Of a stretch of 64,000 nucleotides of DNA, positions 3,879 through 64,000 are shown in pieces. The position numbers were made by a program, and so were the translations under genes. Under the pieces are notes generated by a model that did not search any database, had not been told where the DNA came from, and worked only from the letters and a program-made list of their open reading frames with translations. The DNA comes from Thuidium tamariscinum (lineage: Eukaryota > Streptophyta > Bryopsida > Hypnales > Thuidiaceae): positions 10,480,501 to 10,544,500 of the forward strand of contig OX344758.2 in the NCBI GenBank assembly GCA_947034885.2, written 5' to 3'. Position 1 is the stretch's first letter, and each line of letters opens with the position of its first letter.

Positions 3879-4613
3879 GGTGATTGCAAGAAACACTTGT
3901 CCTTTCTTTTGTCCCCTTGACTTTTACCAAGTAGTTTTTTGCTCATAACTTTTTCATCTTTTGTTTTTAGGACTTGAAATTTGAAACTAAGGTGCAAGCA
4001 AAAGTTTTACATGTTTTGTAATTTTTCCAATTTTTTCAAAATTATTTTACTATTTTTAAACTGCCCCTGATTGGGTGTCAACTTTGGCCATTTCGGGGGG
4101 GGGCGGGGGGTAGTCCTATTTTTGACCCAAAAAAGCAAATTTTGAGCTGAAAATTGGAATTCTTGGACCTATAGTATAGTTACACAATCCCTAGAAAGAA
4201 TTTTTGAAAATATTAAACTGTCCGATTTCCACATGTGCTCAAAGTGCACTACCAAGGTATACTTGTATAGAACACAAAATATTTTTTTTGAAGATGAAAT
4301 TTATTGGAAAAGAAGCATCTTTAAGTTAGAAGAAATGTATTTTTGAATTTTTTATTTTTGAATTTTTTTACTATTTTTAAGAAATCAAAGAAAAAAGTGT
4401 CTATTTTCATTGTATTTTCCATTGTTCTTTTATTGTGCATAACTTTTAGAGGTAAATTTCATTAGGTCTGAATTATAAGAGACATAATATCCTCATTGCT
4501 CTTAAAATTATCCATATTTTATTTTATTTATAAAAAAATTATTCCAAAAGTCATAGGACTCATGGAAAAAGGCCATTTTGAGCCAAAACGGATAAGTGTT
4601 TCTTGCAACGACC
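3879..4613. mobile_element. 735-bp TIR element (family 2, TGCAAGAAAC ends)
   Basis: The left end GTGATTGCAAGAAACACTTG and the right end AAGTGTTTCTTGCAACGAC are inverted repeats of one another. There is no coding capacity. A second copy at 36,522-37,257 has almost the same length (736 bp), which makes this a discrete non-autonomous DNA-transposon-like family. A poly-G run (about 4,096-4,110) lies inside. Confidence 0.65.
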
Positions 4614-15036: not shown

Positions 15037-18000
15037 ATGGCGCCGTTCGGGTCTCTCCCGCAGACGGAGAAGGCGAAGATCGAGCAGATCGTGGCGGAGT
15101 ATTACGCCAAGGCGCTCCACGTCGTGTTGGAGTCCCGGATCCCGCACCACGGGCACAGTAGTGAGCCTGCTGCCGATGCGCACCGTGGTGCCACCACCAA
15201 CAAGTGGTTCAATTTGGAGTTGGAAAGCGCCAGCCATGTCATGGAGAGCGTGGAGCCGTGGAGGCGAGGGTTGTGCCAGGAGCCGATGGTGGTGGACATC
15301 TGGTTGCACCAGCCATCGGGAGGACAGCAGGAACCTCCGTCGTCGTCTCTAGAGCGACAGCGCAGTTTCGGCAACAAGTGGAGCTCCTCGCCGCAGCGCG
15401 TGACGAATTTGAGGGCGGAGTCGTGGAATGAAGACGACGCGGGAACTTCCTCGGTGTCGCGGACCCTGTTGGAGCGATGGGTAGTGCACTACGAGCGGAC
15501 GAAGAAAGGCTCTTGGTTAGGGTTTGGGCCTGTGTTGAAGGGGGTGTCTGTAGAAGGGGGTGCGTCTCTGGAGGAGGACTTAGGTCGGGCAGGGTTGCAG
15601 GCGAATCATGTGTTGGAAAGGCCCGTGGTGTACAAGCGGACGGTGATTATGTTGCGGTCACTGTACTGCTTGGTGCGCACTTTGCCTGCGTTTCGGCTGT
15701 ATAAGCTTGCGACGTCGTCGTCGCATAGCCGCAGCTTCTCCCTGTCTTACTCGGTCTCGCCGGCGACGTCGACGCTCTCGGAGCAAGACGAAGGCGCCAT
15801 GATGAAATGCAATTTGACGCCGATTGAGACGCAGTGGGGGAGGCTCTGCATCTATTCGATGTACAGGAATGCCACGGCGGTCACGGCTTTGGAGGTGACG
15901 CCGCGAATTCTGTCTCGGATCATTCCGGATTATGTCGGGAGCCCGACGACGGATACCTTGCGGAGGTTTACGAGCGTGGGGTCGTTACCTTCGGGCGGGC
16001 TTTCGGGAAGACATGGCGTGCATGTGGTTTCGTTACCAGGTGATTCCTAAATCTCTGATCCCTCGATTGCGAATTAGGGCAAGACTGTTTTTGCAATTCT
16101 TTCTCCTCCTGCCACCCAGGCTCTCATTACACTTGCAGTAACTTCATCTTGCTAGTTTGAAATACTCGTTCCATGACTGAATGTTGAAATGTTTACTCCT
16201 CGACTGTGAAAGTCGGCTTCCGAGTTTTGTAAGCTTTGAACTCAATGAATACTCGGATTTCTAAATTGCTCTTCATAAATGTCCTGCCGCCTTCTTCTTG
16301 GGTTGAAACTGCAGGTAGACCAGTAAGGTGCAATGTTTATAACTTTAGACTGCCACTGCAATACTCTCTTGTCTTTCCTTCTGGAGCCCAGAGCTCCATT
16401 TAGAATTTTCGTTGGATTTACTACTCGTGCATTGGGTTTTGAAGTCTCGTGTCAGAATCACCTTTTATTGGAGAACGCAAGTCTTTCACTCCGAAAACCC
16501 TATTATATATCAGTGTTGGAGGGGTCCCTTTTTCCTCCTTCGCTCTGACATCTGACGTCTAGGTACTTTTGATCTTTTGGAAAACCCAACTCTGACCCTG
16601 CTCTGCCACCAAGCGTGCGTATTCACCACGGGATTGGTTCAGGGGGTCCTTGTGCTCTTAATCTTTCAGTGAAGATTGGGACACCAGGCATCCTGGCAAA
16701 GCGTATTCTTCCCCACGTCTTCACGAAGGGAGGACAGGATCCCAGTGAATGATTTTTCGTGATGCTATAAAAGGACATGTGTTCTAAGGATGCTATGACA
16801 GGATTCTTAATCGGGGAGTTATTTCGGTATAGAACGTTATGTTGCTGTAAAACACTAGGCGGATGGGGTGAGTGTTGCGAAGCTTTTGTTTTGGTGTGCC
16901 CTGTGCTCATCTTGAGGTGTGGTTTATTTCAGGTTCTGTTCCGAACTCTCCATCGGGGGCATTTGGACGACGCCACAGTTGGAGTGGGGGCATAAACAAG
17001 ATACAGTCACAGCCTCCGCTATTGCCAATGTCGCCTTCCTACAAATCTTCCTCACCTTCTCCTTCCCACCCGTCTCATGACTTTCAAAACTCTCCACCTA
17101 AAGCTCCGCTCTACTTCCACCACTCATCCTCCCCATCTGGGACGCACGCTCCGTCTAATCTCTCTCCTCGAAATTCCCCTCATCAGAGGCAGTTCGTTCA
17201 TCCTCCATCCTACCATCACCCTCATCACGACTCTCAACCTATTCCCATCCATGCTCGGCATTCTCCTCCGTTCTCCCCCTCTCCTTCCCCCTCTCCCCCT
17301 CAGCATGGCTACAGCCGTTCCAGGAGTGACCCTGTAAGTATTCCCCGCCCCACTAACCTTAACCGCCCTTTGCCTGCTGGCACCCGCGCTGCCGATCCTC
17401 ATCATCAAAGCAAAAGCCCTCTCCCTCCACCTTCCCCTCAGACTCGAACTTTGGAGAGGACTCCTTCTTTCAATTCCCGACTTCATTCGGGATCTGCTGG
17501 TCATGTCTCCAACTTGTCATTAGATAGCAAGATTGCGGCTCGATCGGCTGATTCCTCACAATTGGTCTCCCCCCAGAGTCGGTTTCGCAGAAATCAGGTA
17601 CTCCTTTTTTTTAGTTTTGCTGCGTTGCCGAATTTAGTTTTGAGCATTAACAATTGGTTGCTTGACTCTAAGTTCAACAGAGAATTAGAATGGCAGTTCT
17701 TGGTGAATATGAAGTTCGAGTGTTTCTTTTCTATCATAGGACAACACCTGCTTCTCGCATCTGAAATCTACAGTTGTCCTGCGAGTCTTTCTAGTTTCAC
17801 TTCAGCACCGGGATGGAGATTTTGTAATGACAAGATATTCTATTGCTGGTTTTCAGACTTTCGGAGAAGATCAGGGGGACGAACTTGCACTGTCAGGCAT
17901 AAAACGGTCTGTGTACAGTCCTCCAGGGCTTGTATTACCTGGTTTCAGAGCTACCAACAGGGTTTCAAGCCACAATCATGAGGATCCAGAGGATGTGAAC

Positions 18001-44747: not shown

Positions 44748-44958
44748 TGGTCAATTTCGTTAAAATGGCGGTATTCCAAGTGTCATTTTGACATATTCCA
44801 TGTACCACTTTGACAAATTTCAAGTGCCATTTTGACATATTTCATGTACCATTTTGACATAGAGGCCTAGAGGTAGAGGAAGAAAATGTGCCATTTTAAC
44901 GGAATGTTGTGCGATTTTAATGGAATATCATGCTATTTTATTTGAATACCGCCATAAT
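44748..44958. repeat. ~210-bp element with CATTTTAAC/GTTAAAATG ends, copy 1
   Basis: It starts ATGGTCAATTTCGTTAAAAT. Inside are tandem ~25-bp units of the form TTCAAGTGCCATTTTGACAT, then inverted ones (GTGCCATTTTAACGGAATGT), ending TGAATACCGCCAT. The right terminal repeat is incomplete. Confidence 0.65.
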
Positions 44959-46109: not shown

Positions 46110-46352
46110 ATGGTCAATTTCGTTAAAATGGGGGTATTCCGAGTGCCATTTTTACAAATTCCAGTGCCATTTTGACATATTCCATGTGCCACTTTGACAA
46201 ATTTCAAGTGCCATTTTGACATAGAGGCTTAGTGGTAGAAAAAAATGTGCCATTTTAACGGAATGTTATGCCAATTTAACAGAATGTCATGCCATTTTAT
46301 TGGGGTATTGCCATTTTATTGGGGTATTGCCATTTTAACAAAATTGACCATT
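46110..46352. repeat. ~240-bp element with CATTTTAAC/GTTAAAATG ends, copy 2
   Basis: It is complete at both ends: ATGGTCAATTTCGTTAAAAT on the left and ATTTTAACAAAATTGACCAT on the right are inverted repeats. It has the same internal GCCATTTTGACA / GCCATTTTAACG units as copy 1, plus a duplicated TATTGGGGTATTGCCATTT segment. Confidence 0.75.
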
Positions 46353-51110: not shown

Positions 51111-51221
51111 ATGCTCGATCCACTTTGTCCTCTAATCCCTAGTGTGCTCAGGGATGACGAGACGTAGACGCTAACCCACGAACGTCCATTGACATTTGAA
51201 ATTTTGTTTCCGTACGTCCAG

Positions 51222-51770
51222 CGGACGGACGACCAGACACTTCCGCGGACGGCATTTCGGACCGACAGAGTGCGGACGCACGGACGGCCCCGATCGCGCG
51301 GACGGGTTGCAGCTGGCTTGCGGACGCGCGGACGGGTTGCAGGTGGACTGCGAACGGCACCGATCGGACGGTACCGATCGCGCGGACGGGTTCCAGCCGG
51401 GTTGCGGACGCGCGGACGGCCCCGATCGCGCGGCTTGCAGACGCGCGGACGGGTTGCAGGCGGACTGCGGACGCATTGCGAACGAGTGGATGGTGTGGAG
51501 AGCGTCCGCAGGCCGTCCGCAAGCCGTCCGCACTGTGCCCGCTCGTCCGCAGTCCACCGACATAGCGTCCGCAGTCCGTCTACACTCCGTCCGCAGTCCG
51601 TCCGCACCGCCGAATCCGACTGGCGATCAATCCTGGCCGCACGATCTTCCGTGAGTCCGTCCACGCTGAATGCCGTCCGATTTTGATGGAGACGTCGCCC
51701 GCTGTCCGCGAGTATAAGTAGCATCGCGGACGGCTCATTGAGGCACAATCGTCCGCCTTCCGAAGTGGGT
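51222..51770 (+). promoter_or_regulatory. GCGGACG island A with TATAAG box, upstream of gene A
   Basis: A dense CpG-rich island of repeated GCGGACG words, partly as ~30-bp units (GCGCGGACGGGTTGCAG...). In the first half the words read GCGGACG. In the second half (from about 51,505) they read CGTCCGC, so the island is an inverted arrangement. TATAAGTA at 51,713 is followed by another CGCGGACGG and CGTCCGC, and the ATG of gene A lies 219 bp downstream. The long frames across the island on both strands are products of the repeat and not genes. Confidence 0.7.
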
Positions 51771-51931
51771 AATCCAGTGCCTCGAGCTCTGTGAGCCCCT
51801 TTCAACTTGGTGAGATGGTTGTGATTAAAACTTGAATACTTTCATAGTATTGAGTTTTAATTATTATTTGCTTTTGCGGGCCCCGAAATTCCCATCACGC
51901 TAATTTTGAACTTTGGGGTAATTTTATTACC

Positions 51932-53011
51932 ATGCCTCGCAATGATAAACCAAAATCCAGTTCCAAGGGCAAATCCCAAGACATGAATTGGGAGGATTGG
52001 GCAAACCCTTTGTGTGTAGCAGAACCTGGATGGGAGGAGGAGCCGAAGAAATCTTGGGACTGCACAACATGCAAGAAGTACGTCAAAATGACGCACCTCT
52101 CAAAAATGTGGTCAAGAGAACGTGCTGAACAGCAAGTTCGTCGTTGGGAGGGACAAATTTTGACGTGCCTAAGCAAGCAGTTTGTCCACCGGTATGAGGA
52201 AGTCACACGGTCAGCTGAAATACGTGACTCCAAACCAAATGTGATGAACTATTCCAACATGGCCATGGTCTGGGCTGAGATTGTGCTCCACAAAGATGTG
52301 GATTGGCGCACAATTTACGGCAAAAATGTCCACCAACTGCATCGTACTGATGCTGTTATTTATACGAGTTGGACTGGTATAAGTGATTGTATGCCAGAGT
52401 GGTCTAACCGAGGCCAACTTGGATATGCACCGGTTGTATTGCCGGATGCTGAGGATGATTGGTCGGATGAGGAGGAGGAGGAGGAGAAGGATGCTTCAAC
52501 GCCTGTGTCATTTGAAGAGATACCTGGGCGTAGACAAGAACGCGAAGACATCCAATACCAGCAAGAAATGCGAGATGCAATGCAACGAAGTCTCGAGGAT
52601 CGTGGTCGACCACATGGGCATCATGGATTGTATCAACATGACCATGGTGTTTATGGGACACAAAATCGCCAAACTGATCCACACTACAGTAATGACCCTC
52701 GAGGTGGCTATGGCAACTACCAAGGCAGCCAAGGAACCACACATGATTATGGTTCCAACCAAGGTAGTTCTCAGTACTATCCTGGATTCTCTGGAAGTAG
52801 TTCTTATAATGATACACGGCACAGGGGATCTCAGCGTGATGATTCAATTCCTCCTCCAACTTTTGGAGGACCTTACTATGGAAATTATGGGCATGGAGGT
52901 GCATCAAGTGGATCTGGAGACATGTGGGGTGGTGGACCATTTCTCGGGACTTTTGGATCTGGTTCAACTGGCCCAACTCGCAAAGATGACACCGATTCAG
53001 AATCTGAGTGA
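51932..53011 (+). CDS. Gene A: 359-residue protein with GWEEE/CKKYVKM domain, function unknown
   Basis: A single exon starting at ATG in ACCATGCC context, 219 bp after the TATAAG box of island A. The basic N-terminus (1-15) is followed by a ~90-residue domain (33-125: GWEEE, W, CTTCKKYVKM, FVHR, MNYSNMAMVWAEIVLHKDVD) shared with gene C at 62,873. Then come an acidic run (174-187), a stretch matching the ubiquitin-interacting-motif pattern (about 207-223: YQQEMRDAMQRSLED with the A-x3-S core), and a long Gly/Tyr/Ser/His-rich low-complexity tail (227-345) ending in DDTDSESE. I do not recognise the family. The low-complexity tail would suit condensate formation, and the UIM-like helix would suit binding ubiquitin; both are inferences. 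A domesticated transposon protein is another possibility, as similar acidic and Gly/Tyr-rich tails occur in plant transposon-derived proteins. Confidence 0.75.
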   Translation: MPRNDKPKSSSKGKSQDMNWEDWANPLCVAEPGWEEEPKKSWDCTTCKKYVKMTHLSKMWSRERAEQQVRRWEGQILTCLSKQFVHRYEEVTRSAEIRDSKPNVMNYSNMAMVWAEIVLHKDVDWRTIYGKNVHQLHRTDAVIYTSWTGISDCMPEWSNRGQLGYAPVVLPDAEDDWSDEEEEEEKDASTPVSFEEIPGRRQEREDIQYQQEMRDAMQRSLEDRGRPHGHHGLYQHDHGVYGTQNRQTDPHYSNDPRGGYGNYQGSQGTTHDYGSNQGSSQYYPGFSGSSSYNDTRHRGSQRDDSIPPPTFGGPYYGNYGHGGASSGSGDMWGGGPFLGTFGSGSTGPTRKDDTDSESE

Positions 53012-53287
53012 GGGAAAAAAATTTGGAAGATTGTAGCGAAACAATGCTTGCTTTAAAATAGAAATATAGTAATTAGCAATCGATTTTTGTATATTCTTGC
53101 CATAGGATACAGATTGGCATAAGGACGATATGAGGATGTTCGCCATTTTTTGAATACAAATTTTGAGTACGCCTATTTGTAAATTCCGATCCAATTATGT
53201 CCCATTTTCTGTGTGAAGCTTCTATGCTGCCTCCTTATTTACAAAGCTGTGAGTTTGTGTGTTCATTATGTTTGCCCCCAAAACAAA

Positions 53288-55664
53288 TTAACCCTTAAGT
53301 TACCAAGGCATTTTCTGGCTGTAAAACCACTGAAAACTGCCATTTCTGCTGCAATCACTCAAGAAACCTAAAAACACTTTTTTTCTTAGAATCTAACCGT
53401 ACGATCTTGTACTTCACTTCTCTAACAACATGTGGTAAAAATTTCATGAAGTTTGACTGTACGGATTGGAAGATATGAGCATTCAAAGTTGGAAAAGAAA
53501 GTTTTTTTCAACTACGTCCTGCAATTTCAGGTGACTTTCATGGCCATTTCTGGATTTGTTTTGCACTACACACCATGAGGTCAAAATTTTTTATCTTGAA
53601 CATTTGAGTTGAGAGTTGGGGATAAAAATTTTACAATGCCTGAACTTGATTTTCACATAAAAAAAAATTGTTAAGTAGAAGTAGGTCCAAAGTTGAACAA
53701 AATACTGAATTCTTAATAGCCCTTATATTGAATTAAAAAATCATAATCCCAACGGTGGGATTGTTCTTGAAAACAAACTTAAGCTTTTAAAAAAAAAATT
53801 GGTAAAAATTTAAAATTGCATTCAAAAATGAATTCTACAAGTTGTTTTCTGAAGAAGATGCGTAGATTGCCCAAAAAACAAGACTGTCCATAACTTTTTC
53901 ATTTTTAGTCCAAATAGGATGAATCAAAGCTTCAAATGTACACAAAAACTAAATTGGTGATAGGTCTTGCATCAAATTGAAACACATTAATTCCAATGGT
54001 GAAACCGTTTTGAAAAAAAAGAACTAAACCTTATGCAATTCTCTATTCAACTATTAAAATGGATGTAATGCATCTCCTTCTCAAAAGTTTACTATGATTG
54101 CTTGAAAAACAAGAAGATTCATAGCCGTCACAGCGTCTTATCCAATGAAAATAAATTAAGTTTCTCTACGTAGAAAAAAATGCTATTTTAAAAAAAAAAG
54201 GAATTTTAAAAATCATTCATGTTTTTCTTTCTATTGCCTACATTGGGCCTTAGGGGGAATAAATTTTCTCTCAAAATACAATTGAAACAAAATTATATTA
54301 CCAAAAAGGCAAAAACCCAATCAATTTTTCCATACAGAAAAAAGGCCCAAAATTTGTTGCCACAAACTTAGTTGAAGTGTACTTCTTCAATACTTCAATA
54401 CCCCAAACCTTCAAAAGTCCTTGAATATATAGGACTCCTCAGACTCATGGAATTAGTACTTTAGTAGATCTTCACATTTTAAAAAAAAAAAAATAATGAA
54501 CAAGTTCAAAAGGCCGATGCATTTTGAACCCCTATAACCCCAACGGGTTAGGACAAAACACAAATATGTTATAAAATATAAACATTACGATTGTTTAGAA
54601 GTTAGTATCAAAGAAGAATGAGAAGATAATGTAAAGCACAAAAAATAGACACTATCCATCCAGTCGAAGTAAAAAAAAATTCAGATTATTTTTAAATGAA
54701 TGTTGAATATAAATTTTCAATAACTCACCAAAAATTCAATTTCTATTTTTATGGTTTGAAATTCTTTTTGATTGGTCTAAATTCTGTTTTTTATTGACTT
54801 ATAAAGAAATGCAAAATATTCAACCTCTAACAGCACAAGGTATTAAGACAAAATACGAATGTGTCATGAAATATAAGATTTACAACATTTTTGAAGTTAG
54901 CATCAAAGAAGACAATGTACAACACAAAAAGTAGAAAGTACCCATATGATCAAAATCAAAAAATATTTATAGATTCTCTTCAAATGAATTTTCAAGATAG
55001 AACTTCAAAAACTCACCAAAAATACAATTCCTATTTTTAGGGTTTGAAATTCTTTTTCATAGGTCAAAATTCTGTTTTTCATTGATTTATAAAGAAATGC
55101 CAGAAATTCAACCTCTACAAGCCCAACGTATTAAGACAAAATACAAATGCGTTATGAAATATAAGATTTACAACATTTTTGAAGTTAGCATCAAAGAAGA
55201 CAATGTAAAGCACAAAAGTAGAAAGTACCCATATGGTCAAAATTAAAAAATATTCATACATTCTCTTTAAATGATTTCTGAAGATATAACTTCAAAAATT
55301 CACCAAAAATACAATTTCCATTCTTAGGGTTTGAAATTTTTTTACTTTGGTCAAAACTGTGGTTCTTATTGCTTTGTTGAAAAATAAATAGTGTTTATCA
55401 ATGAGAGCCTTAGTACTTCTTCCAAATAGTACGTTCCTCAACACTAAGCAATTTTAGACACTTTGTACTATTTCTCCTTTTTTTGGCTATACCTTTTGTT
55501 TGATCGTACTGATCTTAGTTTTCAATATCAATGTTCAAATGAAACCTAATTTTTTCAAAACCGGGAAGAAAAAAGGTCAAAAAAGTTTTTTTTTGGGTTT
55601 AGTAAATTTTCCCAAAGTAAAGAAGAACTTTCAGAAAATGATCGTTTGAGCAATTAGGGGTTAA
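53288..55664. mobile_element. Long TTAA-bounded repeat region with family-1-like ends, 2.4 kb
   Basis: It starts TTAACCCTTAAGTTACCAAG and ends CAATTAGGGGTTAA. The left ~250 bp are the reverse of the right end of the element at 55,857-56,636 (shared 'AACTTCATGAAATTTTTACCA' strand and 'GTACAAGATC.TACGGTTA'). It may be one long element or several. Inside, about 54,520-55,380 is a tandem of ~290-bp units marked by CATCAAAGAAGACAATGTA at about 54,608, 54,901 and 55,190. No gene. Confidence 0.45.
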
Positions 55665-55856
55665 TGTAGAAGATTGTTCCAAAGTTTTAAAACCTGTCCT
55701 ATTCAATCTATTGAAGAAATAAATAAATAATTTTTTTTTTCCAATGTATTTCACAATTTCGAAGGAATTTCAAAGAAGAAACCTTATGAACATTATGAAC
55801 ATTCAATCTATTATCAATCCATTTGTTTAAAAAAAAAAAATAAATCTATAATCAAT

Positions 55857-56636
55857 TTAACCCCTAAAGGACCATTGTCCCCTCGGGGGACAATTTGGAG
55901 TTCGGGCAGGGTCCGTAGACCTCAATTTTTAATGAATCTTTTTGAAACTTTCTCATAAGATAGGAAAACTGATTAGCTTCATGGGAATGTAAATTTGATT
56001 TCAATTGGTGACCGGGAGAAAAAGTTATACCACAAAAAGGCCAAATTTTCATTTGGCGGGCCGAACTTTACAATTTCTTGAAAAAATAACTTATAGGATT
56101 CATTTTTTAATGCAGTTTTCAGAATTTTTCAAAACAAATTGTTGGACAAGGTTATGTTTACTTTCTAAAACAATCTCACCATTGGGATTATTGTATTTCG
56201 ATCCCATCTTAGAGTTATTAACCATTTAGTTTTTCTTTCAATCTTGGACCTACATCTACTTAACAATTTTTTAAAGAATGAAAATCAAGTGTTTTTTGTG
56301 TGAAATTTTTTGCCTAGACTCTCAACTCAATTTCTTAACACAAGAAATTATAAATTCAAAGTCTATAGTGCAATTTTTTAATACAAATTCCAGTCAAAGT
56401 CATCTGAAATTGCAAACCACAGTTCAAGAAAACTTGTATTTCCAACCTTGAATGCTCATATCTTCCAATCTGTACGGTCAAACTTCATGAAATTTTTACC
56501 ACTTCATCTCAACCAAGTTAAGTACAAGATCCTACGGTTAAATTCTTAAATTTTTTTTTTCTTGGATGAATGCAACAGAATTGGCAATTTTGAGAGTTTT
56601 TTGACAGAAAAAAGGCCTTGGTCCTTTAGGGGTTAA
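55857..56636. mobile_element. 780-bp TTAA-flanked TIR element (family 1 relative)
   Basis: It runs from TTAACCCCTAAAGGACCATT to TTGGTCCTTTAGGGGTTAA; the ends pair over 17 bp including TTAA. Noncoding. Confidence 0.8.
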
Positions 56637-57188
56637 GAAGGATTTCCCAATTATTAATGTTCAATTTTTTTCTTAAATGTAATTGATATAGCAATAGAGT
56701 TATCGATATGGCTGTAACCATGGGTCATGCTTCAAAATTTTTAACTAGAAGTGACACATGTAACCCTAAGATCTTCTAGTGCACAAATTGGGGTCTTGGG
56801 GAAGATGTACACAAAATTTTAGAAAAATTAGTAAGTCCCATAAGGCCATAACGTTCATCTTACAAATCAAAATGGAATTATTCAAAACTTTCCAAGTAGA
56901 TCAAAATCTAAAGAACCAATACTTCAAGGCTTCAAGGGTCAACTCATCATGACAAGTTCAAAAACACCAAATCTCGTAGAAATACTTCAAGGGTGAACTC
57001 ATCATGAGGGGTTCCAAAAGACCAAAACATGCAAAAACAAATGTGAGATAGAAGTGAATTGCACATATATTTGGGAAAATTTGTGATGCACACATCTTTT
57101 TATGACATAGTTGAGGTACATAGGGATATATTTCCTTGCCGGTACATCTATTCAATACTTCTATACTTCTACGTATAACACTAAAATA
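56637..57188. other. 3' flank of the kinase-like gene, nothing recognised
   Basis: AT-rich, with a duplicated CTTCAAGGGT.AACTCATCATGA segment near 56,930 and 56,987. No feature supported. Confidence 0.4.
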
Positions 57189-58685
57189 CTAATATGAATG
57201 GCGGAAATGTTCATCTGGGATAGGCCAATTGTAACCTGGGCCAGTAAATCGTTGGACGATTTTAGTCAAACTTACTGCCCTCTCTACATCTGTAGAACAC
57301 AGAAGTTCCAAATAATTATGAAACACAAGTCCTAACTGATGGTGGCTCCACTTTGTATGTCCTCTGTTATCATGATGAAGCGCCGCGTACTCCTTGGACA
57401 TGCATTGCCTGTTGATCTGTTGAGCTAGTTTACCAACCGCAAACTCCTCTGATTTACGTGATAAATGTGGAATCGTTTCCACATCTATATCTTTTCTATG
57501 CACATACACAATAGACGGATCCACCCACCATCTTCTTTGTAAAGCTTCTTTCTTCTCACTTTCAGATGTGAAAGTGTACAAGGATTTGGGTGGATCACTA
57601 TGTACGGTAGTCATGCCCCAATCGCAAACCCCAATATATACACGTGACTCATCATCCGGAAAGTGAAACATGATGTTGTCCGGCGAGAGATCGTTGTGTA
57701 GATGCCCAGCTTGATGCACCGCATGCAAAATGTGCACCAATGCCCATGCGAGCTCCGTACGTTTCTTTCTCCATCGACCTAGAAAGAATGCTCGATTCAC
57801 CTCTTCGGGTGATGGCTTGGAATAAGCCAATCGAATGTGAATATCATCTGGATAGTCCCTATCCATATTCAACATTTGCCTCAACGTTCCGCCATTCCAC
57901 CAATACATGTACCCTTCATTATTTGTTGCATGTACAGCTGCAAATCGTATAACTCCGTCATGTGGAATCCGCACTGCCATTGACTCGTTCTGGTGTTTCA
58001 ACTTTGCGAGTTGAGGCCTCATGCGTTGTTGATGCAATACCTTCGCTGCAAACTCCCAAGATGCTTGTATCTCAGCACATCCTTCAATTTGCACCCTCTG
58101 GATTGTTGCATAGCCCCCCTTCAACACTGTACTGTCTTGTGGAATCACCCTTGCGGTAATGGGCAATGCCACGAGATGCCGCCGCCCACGTTGCAATTCT
58201 ACAGCTCCTTCATCCGTGTTCCACCAACCCAATGATCCTTGTCCCTTCCGTTTCCTTGCATTCTTTGTAAACGGAGCACATTGTTGTACAAACAAGTCCA
58301 CCTTCAAAATGACTTCTTCAAATGTGGGATCATCCACACGATGTTCCTTCCCGTACTTTGCCAATACCACTTTGGCATTCCACAATGAATCTTGCACCCT
58401 GTTCTGCAGAAACCTTTGAAAGCCCCTCTTCTCCGTTTCATGAATCCATCCTGGAACGTAGAGAGCATCCATCATCCTCTTCGTCATATCCGATTTGAAC
58501 TTCTCAATGCACTCCTCTTCATATCGGATGTACTTGCTATCAAGGGATGCAGTGCTCTCCTCCTCATAAAACTGCACTATGATACGGATGAGATATGCCT
58601 TGCAATCATCCGAGGGCATGTCCTCAATGTCTAGCGACTCTAGCACCACAGGTCTTGCCTTTGCTACCTTCTTTCCTTTCAGCAT
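57189..58685 (-). CDS. Gene K: divergent protein-kinase-like protein, 498 residues
   Basis: A single exon on the minus strand. The first ATG of the frame is at 58,685 (a longer frame to 58,694 has only TTG). Residues 1-170 form an N-terminal region I do not recognise (LFVQQCAPFTKNARKRKGQG, SLGWWNTDEG). The C-terminal part is kinase-like: GGYATIQRV (190-198) as glycine loop, FAAKVL with Lys215, YMYWWNGGTL in the hinge area, HLHNDLSPDNIMF (328-340) as catalytic loop and VCDWG (353-357) as metal site. The catalytic Asp and Asn and the metal Asp are kept. HRD has become HND and DFG has become DWG, and no APE motif is visible, so it is a non-RD kinase-like protein that may or may not be active. 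The substrate is unknown. It has the same island-plus-TATAAG promoter type as genes A and C. Confidence 0.8.
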   Translation of the reverse strand: MLKGKKVAKARPVVLESLDIEDMPSDDCKAYLIRIIVQFYEEESTASLDSKYIRYEEECIEKFKSDMTKRMMDALYVPGWIHETEKRGFQRFLQNRVQDSLWNAKVVLAKYGKEHRVDDPTFEEVILKVDLFVQQCAPFTKNARKRKGQGSLGWWNTDEGAVELQRGRRHLVALPITARVIPQDSTVLKGGYATIQRVQIEGCAEIQASWEFAAKVLHQQRMRPQLAKLKHQNESMAVRIPHDGVIRFAAVHATNNEGYMYWWNGGTLRQMLNMDRDYPDDIHIRLAYSKPSPEEVNRAFFLGRWRKKRTELAWALVHILHAVHQAGHLHNDLSPDNIMFHFPDDESRVYIGVCDWGMTTVHSDPPKSLYTFTSESEKKEALQRRWWVDPSIVYVHRKDIDVETIPHLSRKSEEFAVGKLAQQINRQCMSKEYAALHHDNRGHTKWSHHQLGLVFHNYLELLCSTDVERAVSLTKIVQRFTGPGYNWPIPDEHFRHSY

Positions 58686-58874
58686 TGTGATCAAATCAAT
58701 GATAAGAGTTTAAAAACTCTTGATTTCAAGCACAAAGCAGAAAAGACGTACAAAAAAAGGGCAACAACTTGGCCCCAAATCCCACTCCTAACTTCCCTTA
58801 GAAAGGAGCCAATGGAGGATTAACCACCAAGCTCTCCGCTCTCTCTTGTGAAACACAAGGGGGAAGATAGGAAT

Positions 58875-59063
58875 GCGGTTGCGGACAGGCCGTCCGCCCA
58901 TCTTATACCTTGCGGACGGATCGACCCGTCCGCAACCTCGTCGGGGCCGTCCGATCGCGCTGGCCGTCCGATCGTGGCCGTCCGCCTCACCTCGTCGGGG
59001 CCGTCCGCCTCGTCGTCCTCGGGGCCGTCCGATCAGTGTGGCCGTCCGATACTCTGATCGGGG
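58875..59063 (-). promoter_or_regulatory. GCGGACG island B with TATAAG box, upstream of gene K
   Basis: A GC-rich island of about 190 bp with at least eleven CCGTCCG/CGGACGG words in both orientations (for example GGGGCCGTCCGATC). On the minus strand AGGTATAAGATGGGCGGACG places TATAAG at 58,907-58,902, 222 bp before the ATG of gene K, flanked on both sides by the repeated word. Confidence 0.7.
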
Positions 59064-60654
59064 CCTTATGGCATTTCAACTTCAAAATTTCATAACTAAT
59101 TCTACAAAGCTTTAAAAAATACAAAACCAAATGGGGTACACATCAATTCCACTTGTCTTTTAAGGGAATATTTTTGAGAACTACTTCAAAGAAGTTTTAC
59201 CTACCTATTATTTACTTTTAATCCTTCAAGGCTTCAATGGTCAATTGTCCTTGAAAGATATGTGCAATTAGCATGTAAACCAAGTTCTTTGGAACTTTGT
59301 GGAAGTATGTCAAATTAGTTATGATTTATTGGAGTTGAAATGGCATGGGGACCTAAAATCGCCCACCTCCTAAAATGTACATTGTTTGCACATTGCTCAA
59401 GGGTACAGAAAAACAACATGTTTAAATAACTTACATTTGAAGAAGTGGGTGGTCTTGGATCTTGAGCACTTTTAGGACCCCCTCTCATTTAGTGATTGCA
59501 CAACATGTTTGTACGAGCATTTTTGAGTCTTTAGAATTGTGAATAAAACATTTGTTATGATAAAAACAGGAGTACTTATTATATTCCTAGTATCTTAGTT
59601 TCTTATATATAATATTTTATTTGTAGAATTTGGAAAAAATTGTAGTGTAATAGTATTTACTACTTTAAAAAAATTAACCTTTAAATTGTATGACTATGCG
59701 TAGAATATGTTTGAAAAAAAATATCAATACACAAATCCATTATGAACACTTATGTTTTCATGTGTAAAATAAAACAATGTGGTCTCATTAGTCCTTTATT
59801 ATGTTTATTTTGAAAATGTCAATTCAAATATTATTATGTCTACAAATTTCAATCTATAACCTCTAAACAACGGAAAAAAAATTGAAGCAACTTATAAAAA
59901 TTTGAACATAAATTAGTGCGAACTTCATGGATGGAGTGATTGACTAAAACTTATTTCACTTTCTTCTGATGTAGATGGGATTCTAATTCATGAAAACTTG
60001 AACATAAAATAGTGCAACGATGCTAGTAAATGAGCATGAACACGAGCATGTGAACTCCTAATATGTATATAAGTACTTATACTTCCACCTAAGAAGGTGT
60101 TTATAGTCCTAATACCTATAATATAGGGCCCTATAATATAAATACACTCTTATTATAAAAGGTTTCTATAGTATAAACAACTACATTATAGGTGCATCAT
60201 CTTTGAGGCTTAGAAGCTCACACTCAAGGCATAAATTAGACACCCTAGCCAAATTTCTAGGGGACACCCTGGTCAAAATTTTGGGTGTCAAAAGGACACC
60301 CTTGTCCAATTTTTGGGTGTCCCAAATTTTCCATACATTTTTTTTGGTGAGTTAGAATATTCTGATTATTCTCAATTTTGAAAAATTTGTAATATCAATA
60401 TGAATTTTTTGTTACAAATGAAAAGAGTCACTATATACCATAGCGTACAAAAGAAAACAAACCTACAAGCCGCGACCTTTCATGGCACACCATTTCACCC
60501 AAACTTGTTCAAAGTCAATGGCTTCTATATGAATTTTTGCCATTGCAAGTTTGCAACTCTCATTTCTCCTTCCAAAGTCTCCAATACTAAACTAGAACGT
60601 AAATTAGACTTAATATGATTTTGAGTAGAAAATCCCCTCTCACAAGAAGCTGTG
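59064..60654. other. AT-rich gene-free stretch with dispersed repeats
   Basis: It holds the partner of the 26,230 repeat (59,245-59,510) and a degraded relative (about 60,018-60,225) of the foldback at 28,957. A short triplication GGACACCC.GGTCAAA.TTTTGGGTGTC lies near 60,240-60,330. No gene. Confidence 0.5.
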
Positions 60655-61038
60655 CTAGAGGGAATTACAAGAATACTTTGCCACAGCTTGGACATGTGAG
60701 GCTACCAAAATCTGCTGAAAAAGAAATGGGGCTAAATAGATTGTAGTTGCATTGAAGATCTTCAAATCTGGAAATCGTTGTCGCAACGTCTCTAACACTT
60801 TGAGCACATAAGCCTGTGTAATCACTGTACACCCGTGTAAGGTGCCATCACCACCGAATTCAACTGCATACGGCAATGGTGCATAATGCAATATATTTGA
60901 ATTTACAACTCCTATGGAGTCTTGGAACTGAATTTTACCACCTCGAGAAATGTCCAAGAAATGTGCCACAAATTTTGTATCTGCACCAAACTCCTCATTA
61001 TTTTCTAGTAATCCCTTATTTAAACATTTATAATCTTC
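60655..61038 (-). pseudogene. Fragment resembling a hAT-type transposase
   Basis: An open frame of 127 codons begins directly after an in-frame TGA (61,039-61,041), with no ATG at its head. It includes FGADTKFVAHFLDISRGGKI and TQAYVLKVLETLRQRFPDLK followed by IFNA. The 'L..RFPDL.IFNA' pattern is like that of hAT-related, zinc-finger-862-like transposase proteins as I remember them. Sequence beyond both ends shows no continuation, so it is a truncated relic or one exon. Confidence 0.4.
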
Positions 61039-62275
61039 TCAAAAATAGAAGATTGGAAAAAAATCATCATCCCATGTTATTTGGAAAAATATTTTAGAAT
61101 TGATGAATGTACAAATCAAAGTTCTAGACTTTGAATTTTAGATTCCGTTTGCATATTAGTATATTACCTATACCAACATTGTCACCATTCTCTTTTTCCA
61201 AAAATAAAAACATATATATAATTATCTTTTCATACATTAATGCTCTATTGGATATTTGATCCATTAATACCAATTTTTGAAAGCAAAAATCTACAGTTCA
61301 AAATCCAATGTTTGAGCAAAGGACTATCCATTTTTGAACAAATGGATAGTGTAATATAGATAAGACCTAGACATCACGGTAGATGGGGTCTTTCGCTCTT
61401 GGTGGATGGAGTCAGGTAAGACAAGAGCTTGGACGGTGAAGGAAATCCGGTTAAATAGGTGAGCGGAAGGGTGCCTCAATAATTAAGGTTTTGACAAACA
61501 GACAGACATGATTGCGTCAGATAAGATTGAAGTGTATAGGGTTGGTATACATGGGGTTGGGGTACAAATACTTTAGGAGGTTTGTTTGGATATAACTAAT
61601 GTGTTTTACATCCCTTGGGGGCATGAGTGCTAGTAGTCATAGTGAAACAAATTTGCCAAAACTTTATATGGGCAAGTAAAATTTCCTAAAAATTTCACGT
61701 ATGCTCTATATTATGTATTTATATAAGACCCTTTGGGTACAATCGTACGAAAAGTGGTTAAACATGTGTAATGTAGACCTAGTGAAGTCAAACATGAATG
61801 ACTACAAATTACCTTGTGTCCAACAATGGCTTTTGTCAAACATAAGTTAGAGGACATTGTGGACTAAGTAGTAAAAGTATTGGATGTTGTAAATCCTATA
61901 GTTCCACCTAATCCTTGAAATTTTATTTATTTTGCTTATTGCTCAATTTTAGAATTAGCTTGGTAAAAAACAACAAAAAAGAGTATTCATAGAATGCTTG
62001 AAGGGATTCCCTATAACGATGAAAAATTAGTTAGAATAGACCAAGAATTGCCCAATATATACATGTAAAGTTCAAATCATTCTATTTTGATTAGTGACAT
62101 GAGTACATGACAATATAAAAGTAGTGCATTCGAAAGCAAATTCATAAATGTGTCGTTGTGTCTCTCTTCTAAATTATTGGATATTCACTTTAATCATTTA
62201 TATAATGATGATATTTGGCATACAAATTTCTTTTTCAATAGAATGTTATGAAATATGAAAATTGCCACTAAACAA
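61039..62275. other. Gene-free stretch
   Basis: AT-rich apart from a slightly G-rich patch at 61,370-61,640. No gene or element resolved. Confidence 0.45.
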
Positions 62276-62304
62276 TAAACCCTAAACCCTAAATCCTAAA
62301 CCCT
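62276..62304. repeat. Interstitial telomere-like repeat (CCCTAAA)n
   Basis: Four units, one with a single change (AAACCCTAAACCCTAAATCC...), of the plant telomere repeat. Single or few AAACCCTAA copies are also known as telo-boxes in plant promoters. This one is about 570 bp before the ATG of gene C. Confidence 0.85.
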
Positions 62305-62504
62305 CGACCTTCAAAAAGTCTCAGAAATATTAAAAAATTGCACATATTACCATTGCTTGCTTTAAATTCCTTGAATAATTTTACAAGAACTAAATTTAAA
62401 TAACTTCAACATTGGATCCCTATCCTGAATTCTTCTTTGCGCGCTGCTTGCTTTGCTGGCGGACTTCGAATCCGAGGACACACGCAGAGGAGAATCCCAG
62501 ACTT

Positions 62505-62732
62505 TAACGCGCGGACAGAGCCATCGGACGCGTGGACGGCACCTGCGGACGGGCGGACGGACTAGGTTTGGGCGCGCGGACGGGAGCTTCGGCGGCGCTT
62601 TTAGGGTCGGGAGCGGACGGCGGCGGACTGTCCGCCCTCGTGGCCGCTTCGCGTCGTTTGGGCGGACGGTCGGTGCCGATTCAAGTTAGGTTCGGGGTCG
62701 GACAGGTATAAGGGCGGACGGCGGACGGATTT
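62505..62732 (+). promoter_or_regulatory. GCGGACG island C with TATAAG box, upstream of gene C
   Basis: A GC-rich island of about 230 bp with about a dozen GCGGACGG-type words, mostly in one orientation. GGTATAAGGGCGGACGGCGG puts TATAAG at 62,707, 166 bp before the ATG of gene C. Open frames inside the island are repeat artefacts. Confidence 0.7.
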
Positions 62733-62872
62733 CTTTCACTCCTCTCTCCATTATTGGGTTCAACTTTGTCGGAGGCTCTACTGTTGCTTCATTGTGCCAG
62801 TTGCTCCTACGAGGTAGAGAGTTGGGTGATCAAACTGATTGTTTATTTCACGACACTCGTGGACTCGAAGTC

Positions 62873-64000
62873 ATGGCAAGTGAGGGTGATGAACGTGGTG
62901 GGGGAATAAATGCAGCGGGTGGTGGCAATCGAAGGCATAAGCCAAAGGGCGCCAGCCACGAATTACATTATGAGATTCTGGATGACCCAAACATCAAAGC
63001 GGAAAACGGATGGGAGGAGGAGGCAGCACCGTATTGGTCTTCGAAAATGTGCAAAAAATACGTGAAAATGTACCACATTGACAAGTTGTGGCCTAGGGAG
63101 GCCCATGAACTTCATACACGTGGTTTTGCTTGCAAACCCACCAACTGCAATAACGCTCATTTTGTGCATCGCGCTTTGGAAGTTTGGCGGGCCCTCTTTG
63201 GAAAGAAAGCAATGAGTAAAGGGTACATAAACTACAGCTTGGCTTCTATGGTGTATGCAAAATTGATATTGGAACGCAAGGTGGATTGGAGCACGTATCC
63301 GGCGACAGCACAAACTCCATTTGTACAAGAAATGAATGGAAAAGACATTCCCGATTTGTACAATCCTCAAGGAGGGCCAAGTGAGGTATCGAAGCCCAAA
63401 AGAGTATTAAAAAATACTAGAAAAATTGAAACAAAAGTCTCAGAGGTACCAAGTGATGGACCACGCTTGCAGCCTACACACACTTTGAGGACAATGGAAG
63501 ATACTGAAGGTGAAGGTGTGGAAGGAAAAGTGTTTGCAACTCCTCCTACGGATTTAATATGCACTCCAAATGTTACGACGGTGGCTGAACAGGGCATTCT
63601 TGAAGATATACAGAGTGGGAAGAAAGAAGGTGGGCCCCCATTGGCTCGATGTGAAGGTAGTGAAGATACGGAAGAGGTAGCCGAGGGAGAAATTGCAGAG
63701 GCCAATGCTACAATTCATGATATTATTGACAGTAATGCTCTCGACATCTTCGGGCTTGTACATTCGAAACCATCATGTTTGAGCAAACCGAGCGTTTCCA
63801 GCCCCGTACAGAGCGCAACAATTGAAGCAGCTACTGCCAAAAAAAATGGAGAGGCATCTCAGGGAAAAGGAAAAGAAGTAGTCATCGATGTTGAAGTCAT
63901 CCCCAACCAATACCCGCATTTGTCCACCTTGAACACATCACAATTGGAGGCTCTTTCGAACATGCCGAATGCCGCAGAGCTGGAACGGTTGTTGGAGGCT
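62873..64000 (+). CDS. Gene C (partial): paralogue of gene A's N-terminal domain, runs off the window
   Basis: ATG at 62,873 (context AAGTCATGG) opens 376 codons with no stop before the window end. After a Gly-rich N-terminus, residues 46-141 carry the domain of gene A: GWEEE, YW, MCKKYVKM, HI-KLWPRE, NAHFVHRALEVW, YINYSLASMVYAKLILERK and VDW. The insert CKPTNCNN before FVHR is absent from A, as is the first Cys of A's CTTC, so a zinc site is unlikely. The rest is acidic and disordered-looking (DTEGEGVEG, SEDTEEVAEGEIAEA), then KGKEVVIDVEVIPNQYPHLS, then a Leu-rich possible helix (LEALSNMPNAAELERLLEA) at the edge. The family is unrecognised. It is intronless so far and has the shared promoter island. 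Confidence 0.75.
   Translation, partial: MASEGDERGGGINAAGGGNRRHKPKGASHELHYEILDDPNIKAENGWEEEAAPYWSSKMCKKYVKMYHIDKLWPREAHELHTRGFACKPTNCNNAHFVHRALEVWRALFGKKAMSKGYINYSLASMVYAKLILERKVDWSTYPATAQTPFVQEMNGKDIPDLYNPQGGPSEVSKPKRVLKNTRKIETKVSEVPSDGPRLQPTHTLRTMEDTEGEGVEGKVFATPPTDLICTPNVTTVAEQGILEDIQSGKKEGGPPLARCEGSEDTEEVAEGEIAEANATIHDIIDSNALDIFGLVHSKPSCLSKPSVSSPVQSATIEAATAKKNGEASQGKGKEVVIDVEVIPNQYPHLSTLNTSQLEALSNMPNAAELERLLEA

Follow-up and report, generated by a model that had tools for sequence, protein, structure and literature searches.

A four-gene hAT transposon in Thuidium tamariscinum carries arrays of one short word at its ends and at its predicted promoters

Most hAT elements are small and have a single gene, and their terminal inverted repeats are short, with the consensus start CAGGG. 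In Spm/En, which belongs to the CACTA superfamily and has one promoter at one end, TnpA acts on subterminal repeats that overlap this promoter (autoregulation). Binding to subterminal repeats has also been described for hAT elements: in Ac, the transposase binds AAACGG repeats that lie within 200 bp of the ends (PMC3260210), and in Hermes the BED domains bind left-end subterminal repeats (PMC10368747). Giant algal DNA transposons of 15-30 kb (KDZ, EnSpm and Sola-1, among them the 21.5-kb Sola1-1_Ec32) carry accessory genes, one of them on the strand opposite the transposase, and include presumed non-autonomous families; hAT elements make up 0.05% of that algal genome (PMC12477816).

We analysed a stretch of 64,000 nucleotides of the T. 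tamariscinum genome (the window; contig OX344758.2, positions 10,480,501 to 10,544,500), and found that it contains the left 12.9 kb of a hAT DNA transposon (Table 1). The element is 21,979 bp long; its last 9,127 bp lie in the downstream flank of the window (L022:1-9127). This flank holds the rest of gene C, gene T with an island of repeated words of its own, and a fifth island; one pair of ends encloses the whole. The four genes follow in the order A(+), K(-, kinase-like), C(+, RING finger) and T(+, the hAT transposase), with one open frame each. The terminal inverted repeats are alike in 10 of 11 bases. As expected of a hAT element, it has the 8-bp target-site duplication, the short inverted ends and, in the T protein, the C-terminal dimerisation domain, although its length and four genes depart from the typical single-gene size. 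A search of Rfam gave no match at the gathering score. The window also contains an ATG13 gene at 15 kb and a CTAAACC array at 62268-62304, both of which point to a genome of the plant lineage.

Table 1. Positions of the transposon, its genes and its word islands in window coordinates, or in those of the downstream flank (L022; L022:9127 corresponds to window coordinate 73127).
Feature	Position	Strand	Remark
8-bp target-site duplication AGTGTGCT, left copy	51141..51148		right copy at L022:9128-9135 (window 73128-73135)
Left terminus, first bases CAGGGATGACG	51149..51175	+	10 of 11 bases like the right terminus
Part of the 21,979-bp element in the window	51149..64000	+	other 9,127 bp at L022:1-9127
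Island A	51221..51756		24 CGGACG and 12 GCGGACGG words; at once A promoter region and left subterminal array
TATAAG box of gene A	51713..51718	+	219 bp before ATG at 51932
Gene A	51932..53011	+	one open frame of 359 aa; shares its N-terminal domain with C and the second-lineage RING protein
Long inverted repeat	53388..56546		72-81% complementarity in its three arm pairs; takes up most of the spacer between A and K
Gene K	57189..58685	-	498 aa, one open frame; divergent predicted protein kinase
TATAAG box of gene K	58902..58907	-	222 bp before ATG at 58685
Island K	58882..59049		5 GCGGACGG and 9 CGGACG words
Island C	62460..62728		7 GCGGACGG and 8 CGGACG words
TATAAG box of gene C	62707..62712	+	166 bp before ATG at 62873
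Gene C, first 376 of 1,034 codons	62873..64000	+	stop at L022:1975-1977
Island T	L022:3996-4239		TATAAG at L022:4277, 263 bp before T ATG
Right terminus, reading CAGGGTTGACG on the opposite strand	last base L022:9127 (window 73127)		10 of 11 bases like the left terminus

The element is present in dozens of copies. Exact 27-base left ends were found 98 times and exact 16-base right ends 64 times genome-wide, while the reversed controls gave 0 and 0. Within 60 kb of each other these ends formed 33 pairs, 25 of them spaced 21.3-22.6 kb; the other eight had other lengths, from 3.2 to 50.3 kb. Both ends were read for 20 of the 25 pairs, and perfect 8-bp duplications flanked 17 of these, in contrast to 0 of 380 mismatched pairs used as a control; three pairs lacked the duplication. 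The internal layout was constant as well: 13 A-K-C units were identified, and their A-to-K distance was 7,154-7,183 bp. In the window, the long inverted repeat, probably an old nested element, fills most of the spacer between genes A and K. Two short derivatives without genes (L010:4558-5037, 480 bp; L014:4842-5427, 586 bp) have both ends, a perfect 8-bp duplication and 15 and 22 CGGACG words, respectively. Since they retain only the ends and the words, the words may serve transposition.

On the two strands of the window together there are 26 copies of the word GCGGACGG, as against a mean of 0.02 and a maximum of 1 in 100 dinucleotide shuffles; the reversed word GGCAGGCG is absent from the window. 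All but two of the 26 fall within islands A, K and C. In the whole element, 56 of the 57 CGGACG words lie within five islands that total 1,673 bp, one at the start of each gene and one at the right end. Island A is at the same time the left subterminal region; the arrays occupy the terminal 620 bp on this side (in common with the A promoter) and 250 bp at the other end. In each of the in-window island regions a single TATAAG stands on the same strand as the gene, and the same layout is seen at all four genes: an array with a GGACG core (GCGGACGG) around or just before TATAAG, 166-263 bp before the ATG. The in-window islands have a GC content of 65-68% and a CpG observed/expected ratio of 1.30-1.44; for the part of the window to the left of the element the values are 33% and 0.42. 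The initial annotation had described the islands as sharply set off from their surroundings, with TATAAG boxes 219, 222 and 166 bp before three ATGs and two related proteins among the products, and all of this agrees with our measurements.

That annotation also proposed a genome-wide count. The pattern TATAAGN{0,12}GCGGACGG occurred 236 times, compared with 9 for the reversed pattern. Of the 236 places 100 were listed, and 99 of those fitted five promoter types (1 was other), namely the three of the window's element and two of sister forms. In the sister promoter type of the K form a K match adjoined in 3 of 3; for the A form, three of nine places were read (L032, L036 and L045). Comparison of copies showed that in island A word bases diverged by 5.7%, other island bases by 9.6% and flanks by 2.5%, and in island K by 5.2, 9.9 and 3.4%, respectively; in island C word bases and other island bases scarcely differed (3.9 versus 4.3%). 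The copies were picked by the TATAAG-GCGGACGG pattern, so that retention of TATAAG among them is not an independent observation.

Gene K encodes a divergent predicted protein kinase. Kinase motifs AAK, HND..N and DWG can be read by eye, the match to Pfam Pkinase (PF00069; E 4.3e-7, 30.0 bits) falls just under the 31.7-bit cut-off, and the best kinase among solved structures matched with E 0.0018. Gene C extends 1,977 bp past the window end, where a RING finger is encoded that scores above the cut-offs of zf-RING_11 (30.9 versus 27.0 bits) and zf-ANAPC11 (26.2 versus 25). Its N-terminal domain resembles protein A (BLASTP 39% over 117 aa, E 1e-23). An AlphaFold model of this common domain, built with 7 sequences, had a mean pLDDT of 67, and a PDB search with it gave no match better than E 6.5. 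Comparison of A with three sister copies gave dN/dS of 0.20-0.23 at dS of about 1 over 282 codons. Among close copies dN/dS was moderate (0.22-0.64, one 1.16), and stops were present in 3 of 7 A, 3 of 6 K and 4 of 11 C copies examined.

The T protein matched DUF659 (PF04937, E 7e-33) and Dimer_Tnp_hAT (PF05699, E 1.5e-9) above the Pfam cut-offs. At least 42 scored matches to T were found genome-wide, itself included, at 92-100%; among these 42, 24 had no stop and 18 had stops. For 40 of the 42, an opposite-strand K lay upstream within 60 kb, and for 38 it lay at 8.6-11 kb. T had no match to the zf-BED model, and the transposase of a second lineage, T', scored below its cut-off (E 0.021, 15.3 bits against 20.6 bits); a CCHC pattern (CxxC..H..C) can be read by eye in both T and T'.

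This second hAT lineage is about 17 kb long and has its own ends and GGACGG arrays. T' is 39% identical to T over 690 aa, the RING protein is about 30% identical to C, and K' is 28-29% identical to K. Exact-end pairs of 16.5-17.5 kb numbered 23, on three chromosomes (C1-C3); perfect 8-bp duplications flanked eight of ten tested pairs (control, 0 of 90), and two had none. Among the copies of the two lineages, that at C1:6508992 has a target duplication alike in seven of eight bases. At C2:29.17-29.18 Mb lies a sister form that has A' and K'; it shows a possible right end, and no CAGGG was found within 1.5 kb on its left side. An LTR retrotransposon had been considered, since GCGGACGG clusters were seen in pairs some 5 kb from each other; we dropped this idea because two such places (L012 and L016) contain a RING gene close to a CAGGG end that belongs to the second lineage.

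One mobile hAT DNA transposon thus comprises genes A, K and C together with their matching promoters, and the promoters belong to this element, not to three host genes. The kinase-like gene and the other gene family had been annotated as unrelated; they are genes of one element. The best overall explanation, to which we assign a probability of about 0.85, is a 21,979-bp four-gene hAT transposon with array promoters; the use of one word for both ends and promoters is graded apart. Co-regulation of A, K and C is likely. We infer an old lineage of giant hAT elements in which predicted transposase-binding repeats double as promoter arrays. A putative zinc finger of T would bind the words at the element ends, leading to assembly of the transposition complex, and could bind the same words at the gene promoters too; the element would thereby control its own transposase and switch its four genes together. 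We give this dual role slightly less than an even chance. The kinase and the RING protein may be working accessory factors, since the second lineage has the same trio although the two transposases are just 39% identical. The fullest version of the model is more tentative, and we lean against it as a whole: a long-lived giant hAT lineage with a kinase and a RING-type ubiquitin ligase as working parts, whose repeats spread to every promoter, so that one word would set transposase, kinase and ligase levels as well as end-binding, and whose four-gene regulon would act on host proteins by phosphorylation and ubiquitination.

A serious alternative, to which we allow somewhat less than an even chance, accepts the same element but holds that the internal islands are bound by a host factor, or are simply CpG-dense unmethylated promoters, free of transposase control; their likeness to the subterminal arrays would then come from array duplication or a common host factor. 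The high CpG ratio of the islands and the weak conservation of words in island C are in line with this, and a common host factor would easily explain why GGACGG arrays persist beside a 39%-identical transposase. However, words fill the two gene-less derivatives together with the ends, which points to a role in transposition. It is also conceivable, though unlikely, that A, K and C are passengers from a Pack-type capture by a hAT element and neutral for it. Gene capture by DNA transposons is common, and the stops in close copies would fit neutral cargo; yet each gene has one open frame and a promoter of the element's own type, A differs from the sister form with a low dN/dS, and the transposase-kinase-RING trio is found again in the second lineage at about 39, 29 and 30% identity.

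Other origins appear far less probable. An endogenised virus, or a Teratorn-like fusion of virus and transposon, is very improbable: several genes lying on both strands, each with a promoter of its own, would suit the layout of a small dsDNA virus, but the Pfam matches of the four proteins include no capsid, polymerase or packaging gene, the ends and duplications are of hAT type, and IMG/VR yielded no relative of K or A to back-translated patterns and tblastn, a search that reaches close relatives only. More improbable still is the mobile promoter or retrogene unit, placed before unrelated genes, that the initial annotation had suggested from single open frames with a common module. Part of that suggestion holds, as the module is shared, non-random and mobile and stands at the starts of single-exon genes; the promoters, however, move with their genes as one hAT transposon, 99 of the 100 listed places match promoters of the element or its sister forms, and the A, K and C sites keep a fixed spacing. 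A retrogene or retrotransposon unit, which would have LTR or poly-A ends and target duplications of other lengths, does not fit the short inverted ends and 8-bp duplications seen here.

A 22-kb hAT element that has four genes, kinase and RING partners retained in two lineages, and a promoter word in common with its subterminal arrays would mean that a cut-and-paste transposon can grow into a small gene network with no virus involved. It also allows direct tests of the old question of how such an element keeps its transposase in check. When plant genomes are annotated, genes of this kind, which come as dozens of almost identical kinases and RING proteins in single frames, may be taken for expanded host gene families. 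A literature search, which covered few subscription papers and no bioRxiv preprints, found no multi-gene hAT element with a kinase or RING gene.

The element resembles Ac/Ds, hobo, Tam3, Hermes and Tol2 in its 8-bp duplication, its hAT dimerisation domain and a terminal inverted repeat some 11 bp long; like Ac/Ds and other hAT elements it has many copies of a short word in its subterminal regions, and its short gene-less derivatives with ends and words are reminiscent of Ds. In contrast to Ac, which is 4.6 kb long (PMC3260210) and has one gene, it is 22 kb long with four genes, and, unlike Ac and other hAT elements, it has kinase-like and RING genes and repeats its subterminal word at internal promoters. 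It shares with the algal giants the 15-30 kb size class and accessory genes, one opposite the transposase strand, but those belong to other transposase superfamilies, and a ParB/methyltransferase protein is named for them, not a kinase and a RING protein (PMC12477816). Starship elements of fungi and Teratorn of medaka are likewise giant, mobile and rich in genes; Starships use a tyrosine recombinase and Teratorn is a 180-kb piggyBac-herpesvirus fusion, which sets both apart from a hAT element. If the words do serve both ends and promoters, the closest parallel would be the autoregulation of Spm/En, with four dispersed promoters here in place of a single one at the end.

Genes A, K and C belong, together with a transposase gene T, to one hAT DNA transposon, which starts in the window and ends in L022, the contig stretch directly after it. 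In seven fetched A-side copies, the match to the window breaks off just left of the A island (an island being a word-rich promoter or end array), at a common sharp terminus, CAGGGATGACG. The two ends of the window copy thus define an element of 21,979 bp with an 8-bp duplication, its terminal bases being inverted at 10 of 11 positions. Genome-wide, exact searches returned 98 left ends (27 bases) and 64 right ends (16 bases), and none for the reversed controls. Pairing within 60 kb gave 33 pairs, 25 of 21.3–22.6 kb and the other eight of 3.2–50.3 kb; the window copy is outside this set because its left end deviates from the 27-base pattern. Perfect 8-bp duplications were found in 17 of the 20 pairs (from the 25) read at both ends, and in 0 of 380 mismatched pairs. 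The element is a two-ended hAT with four promoter arrays. The same left terminus also faces itself at C3:26222139-26256380 (34 kb) and C5:29242133-29311367 (69 kb), and the left member of the C5 pair has, in addition, a right-end partner 25.3 kb off; these are either nested or composite insertions or neighbours by chance.

Features of the window, of the 22-kb element and of a second-lineage element
Feature	Location	Description
Host ATG13 gene	window 15037-16050	GC-rich exon; Pfam ATG13, E 3.7e-37; informative on host lineage
Two repeat arrays	window 44772-44940, 46135-46337	21-22 bp repeat (TATTCCAAGTGCCATTTTGACA type); ~1.4 kb apart
Left end	window 51149	preceded by AGTGTGCT
A		359 aa
K		498 aa; divergent kinase, just under Pfam cut-off
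C		1,034 aa in total; A-like N-terminal domain and RING finger
T island	L022:3996-4239	TATAAG at 4277, 263 bp before T ATG
T		1,087 aa; DUF659 and hAT dimerisation domain
Fifth island	final 250 bp of element
Right end	L022:9127	ends in CGTCAACCCTG, then the same eight bases, AGTGTGCT
Second-lineage element	C1:6508992-6525961	16,970 bp; duplication 7 of 8

The window contains 26 copies of the island word GCGGACGG (0.02 expected), of which 24 lie within three islands; every island has TATAAG on the strand of its own gene. The initial annotation had placed TATAAG 219, 222 and 166 bp before the ATGs of A, K and C, and all three distances were right. The word-plus-TATAAG layout that it described was confirmed and, since T has its own island and TATAAG, is common to all four genes, although the TATAAG of T sits ~40 bp past its island. 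Of the element's 57 shorter CGGACG words, 56 lie inside the five islands (1,673 of 21,979 bp). Genome-wide, GCGGACGG occurs 10,510 times versus 2,859 for the backwards word, and TATAAGN{0,12}GCGGACGG 236 times versus 9 for the reversed pattern.

The TATA regions of A, K and C each have their own wording and recur in fixed order on several contigs, in both orientations: A(+), K(-) ~7.17 kb on, and C(+) ~11 kb from A. Among the 100 places that were listed, out of 236, five promoter types cover 99 (A, 24; K, 19; C, 44, which takes in doubled words; sister forms of A, 9, and of K, 3), with one other. K and C follow in order after 13 of these 24 A sites, at an A–K distance of 7,154–7,183 bp. The three promoters travel together. 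Within the element, a long inverted repeat with CCCCTAAAGGACC-like borders (window 53388-56546) resembles an old nested insertion, given that A–K spacing was constant in the 13 units measured; by eye, a stretch between C and T (L022:2765-3675) resembles it.

In the window copy, A, K, C and T are stop-free open frames. K has at least 87 matches, 79 at 87–100% and 8 at 58–60% identity. T has at least 42 scored matches, itself included, 24 of the 42 without stops; an opposite-strand K lies upstream within 60 kb in 40 of the 42 (38 at 8.6–11 kb), a count omitting one short K row of the 87. When A was compared with its sister form, dS was ~1 and dN/dS 0.20–0.23 in all three comparisons (282 codons). 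Among close copies, dN/dS was 0.39–0.48 for A, with one at 1.16, and, compared in part, 0.23–0.62 for K and 0.22–0.64 for C; stops occurred in 3/7, 3/6 and 4/11, respectively.

A second hAT lineage has a transposase, T' (in stretch L015), 39% identical to T over 690 aa, with at least 44 scored copies at 98–100%, 36 without stops. Its tabulated element carries T'(+), a kinase relative K'(-) and a RING protein(+) with an A-like domain. Exact searches gave 129 left and 233 right ends; on chromosomes C1–C3, 40 of 57 left ends paired within 60 kb (23 at 16.5–17.5 kb, 13 at 860–929 bp, 4 at 15.5–32.7 kb). Duplications were perfect in 8 of 10 pairs tested (nine on C1–C3, one on C4). The arrays are GGACGG-rich, with 16 copies in the T' island and 12 at the right end.

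Thirteen ten-kb stretches of C1 (L009-L021) were chosen around GCGGACGG places, which in 11 cases were repeated hits. Six (L009, L010, L012, L013, L015, L016) encode proteins related to A, K, C or T, and no such relative was found in L011 or L017-L021. Gene-less elements of 480 bp (L010) and 586 bp (L014) are bounded by the two ends of the 22-kb family and flanked by perfect duplications; they contain 15 and 22 CGGACG words, respectively. Their retention of ends and words suggests that these are what the transposase needs; Ds elements have the same layout. The 480-bp derivative lies ~10 bp before the ATG of a kinase relative (L010:4558-5057), which adjoins a T' gene, and might act as a promoter insertion. 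A small hAT-like element of 167 bp, of the CAGGGTTGTTATATC kind, has inserted into one of the GCGGACGG words at L017:4793-4959 (C1:6.547 Mb), so that this word forms its 8-bp target duplication. Another protein family, possibly an additional accessory gene, recurs near the hAT elements (L014:6460-8139, 560 aa; L014:2389-3018; L015:730-1998; L013:9655-9969). C1:4222000-4241999 (L018, L019) is a large inverted duplication with the same open frames in mirror order.

Between copies, word bases of islands A and K vary less than other island bases and more than flanks; in island C they differ hardly at all from either. A putative zinc finger of T may read the GGACG core at ends and internal promoters, which would tie the expression of the genes to the amount of transposase. 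The words might instead be read by a host factor, a serious rival to which we give somewhat less than even odds. Among related elements, Ac has AAACGG repeats within its terminal 200 bp to which its transposase binds (PMC3260210), and Hermes has subterminal repeats bound by BED domains (PMC10368747).

No hAT carrying several genes, a kinase and a RING gene among them, turned up in our literature search. Accessory genes are already known from giant DNA transposons of the KDZ, EnSpm and Sola-1 groups (PMC12477816), and from Starships and Teratorn.
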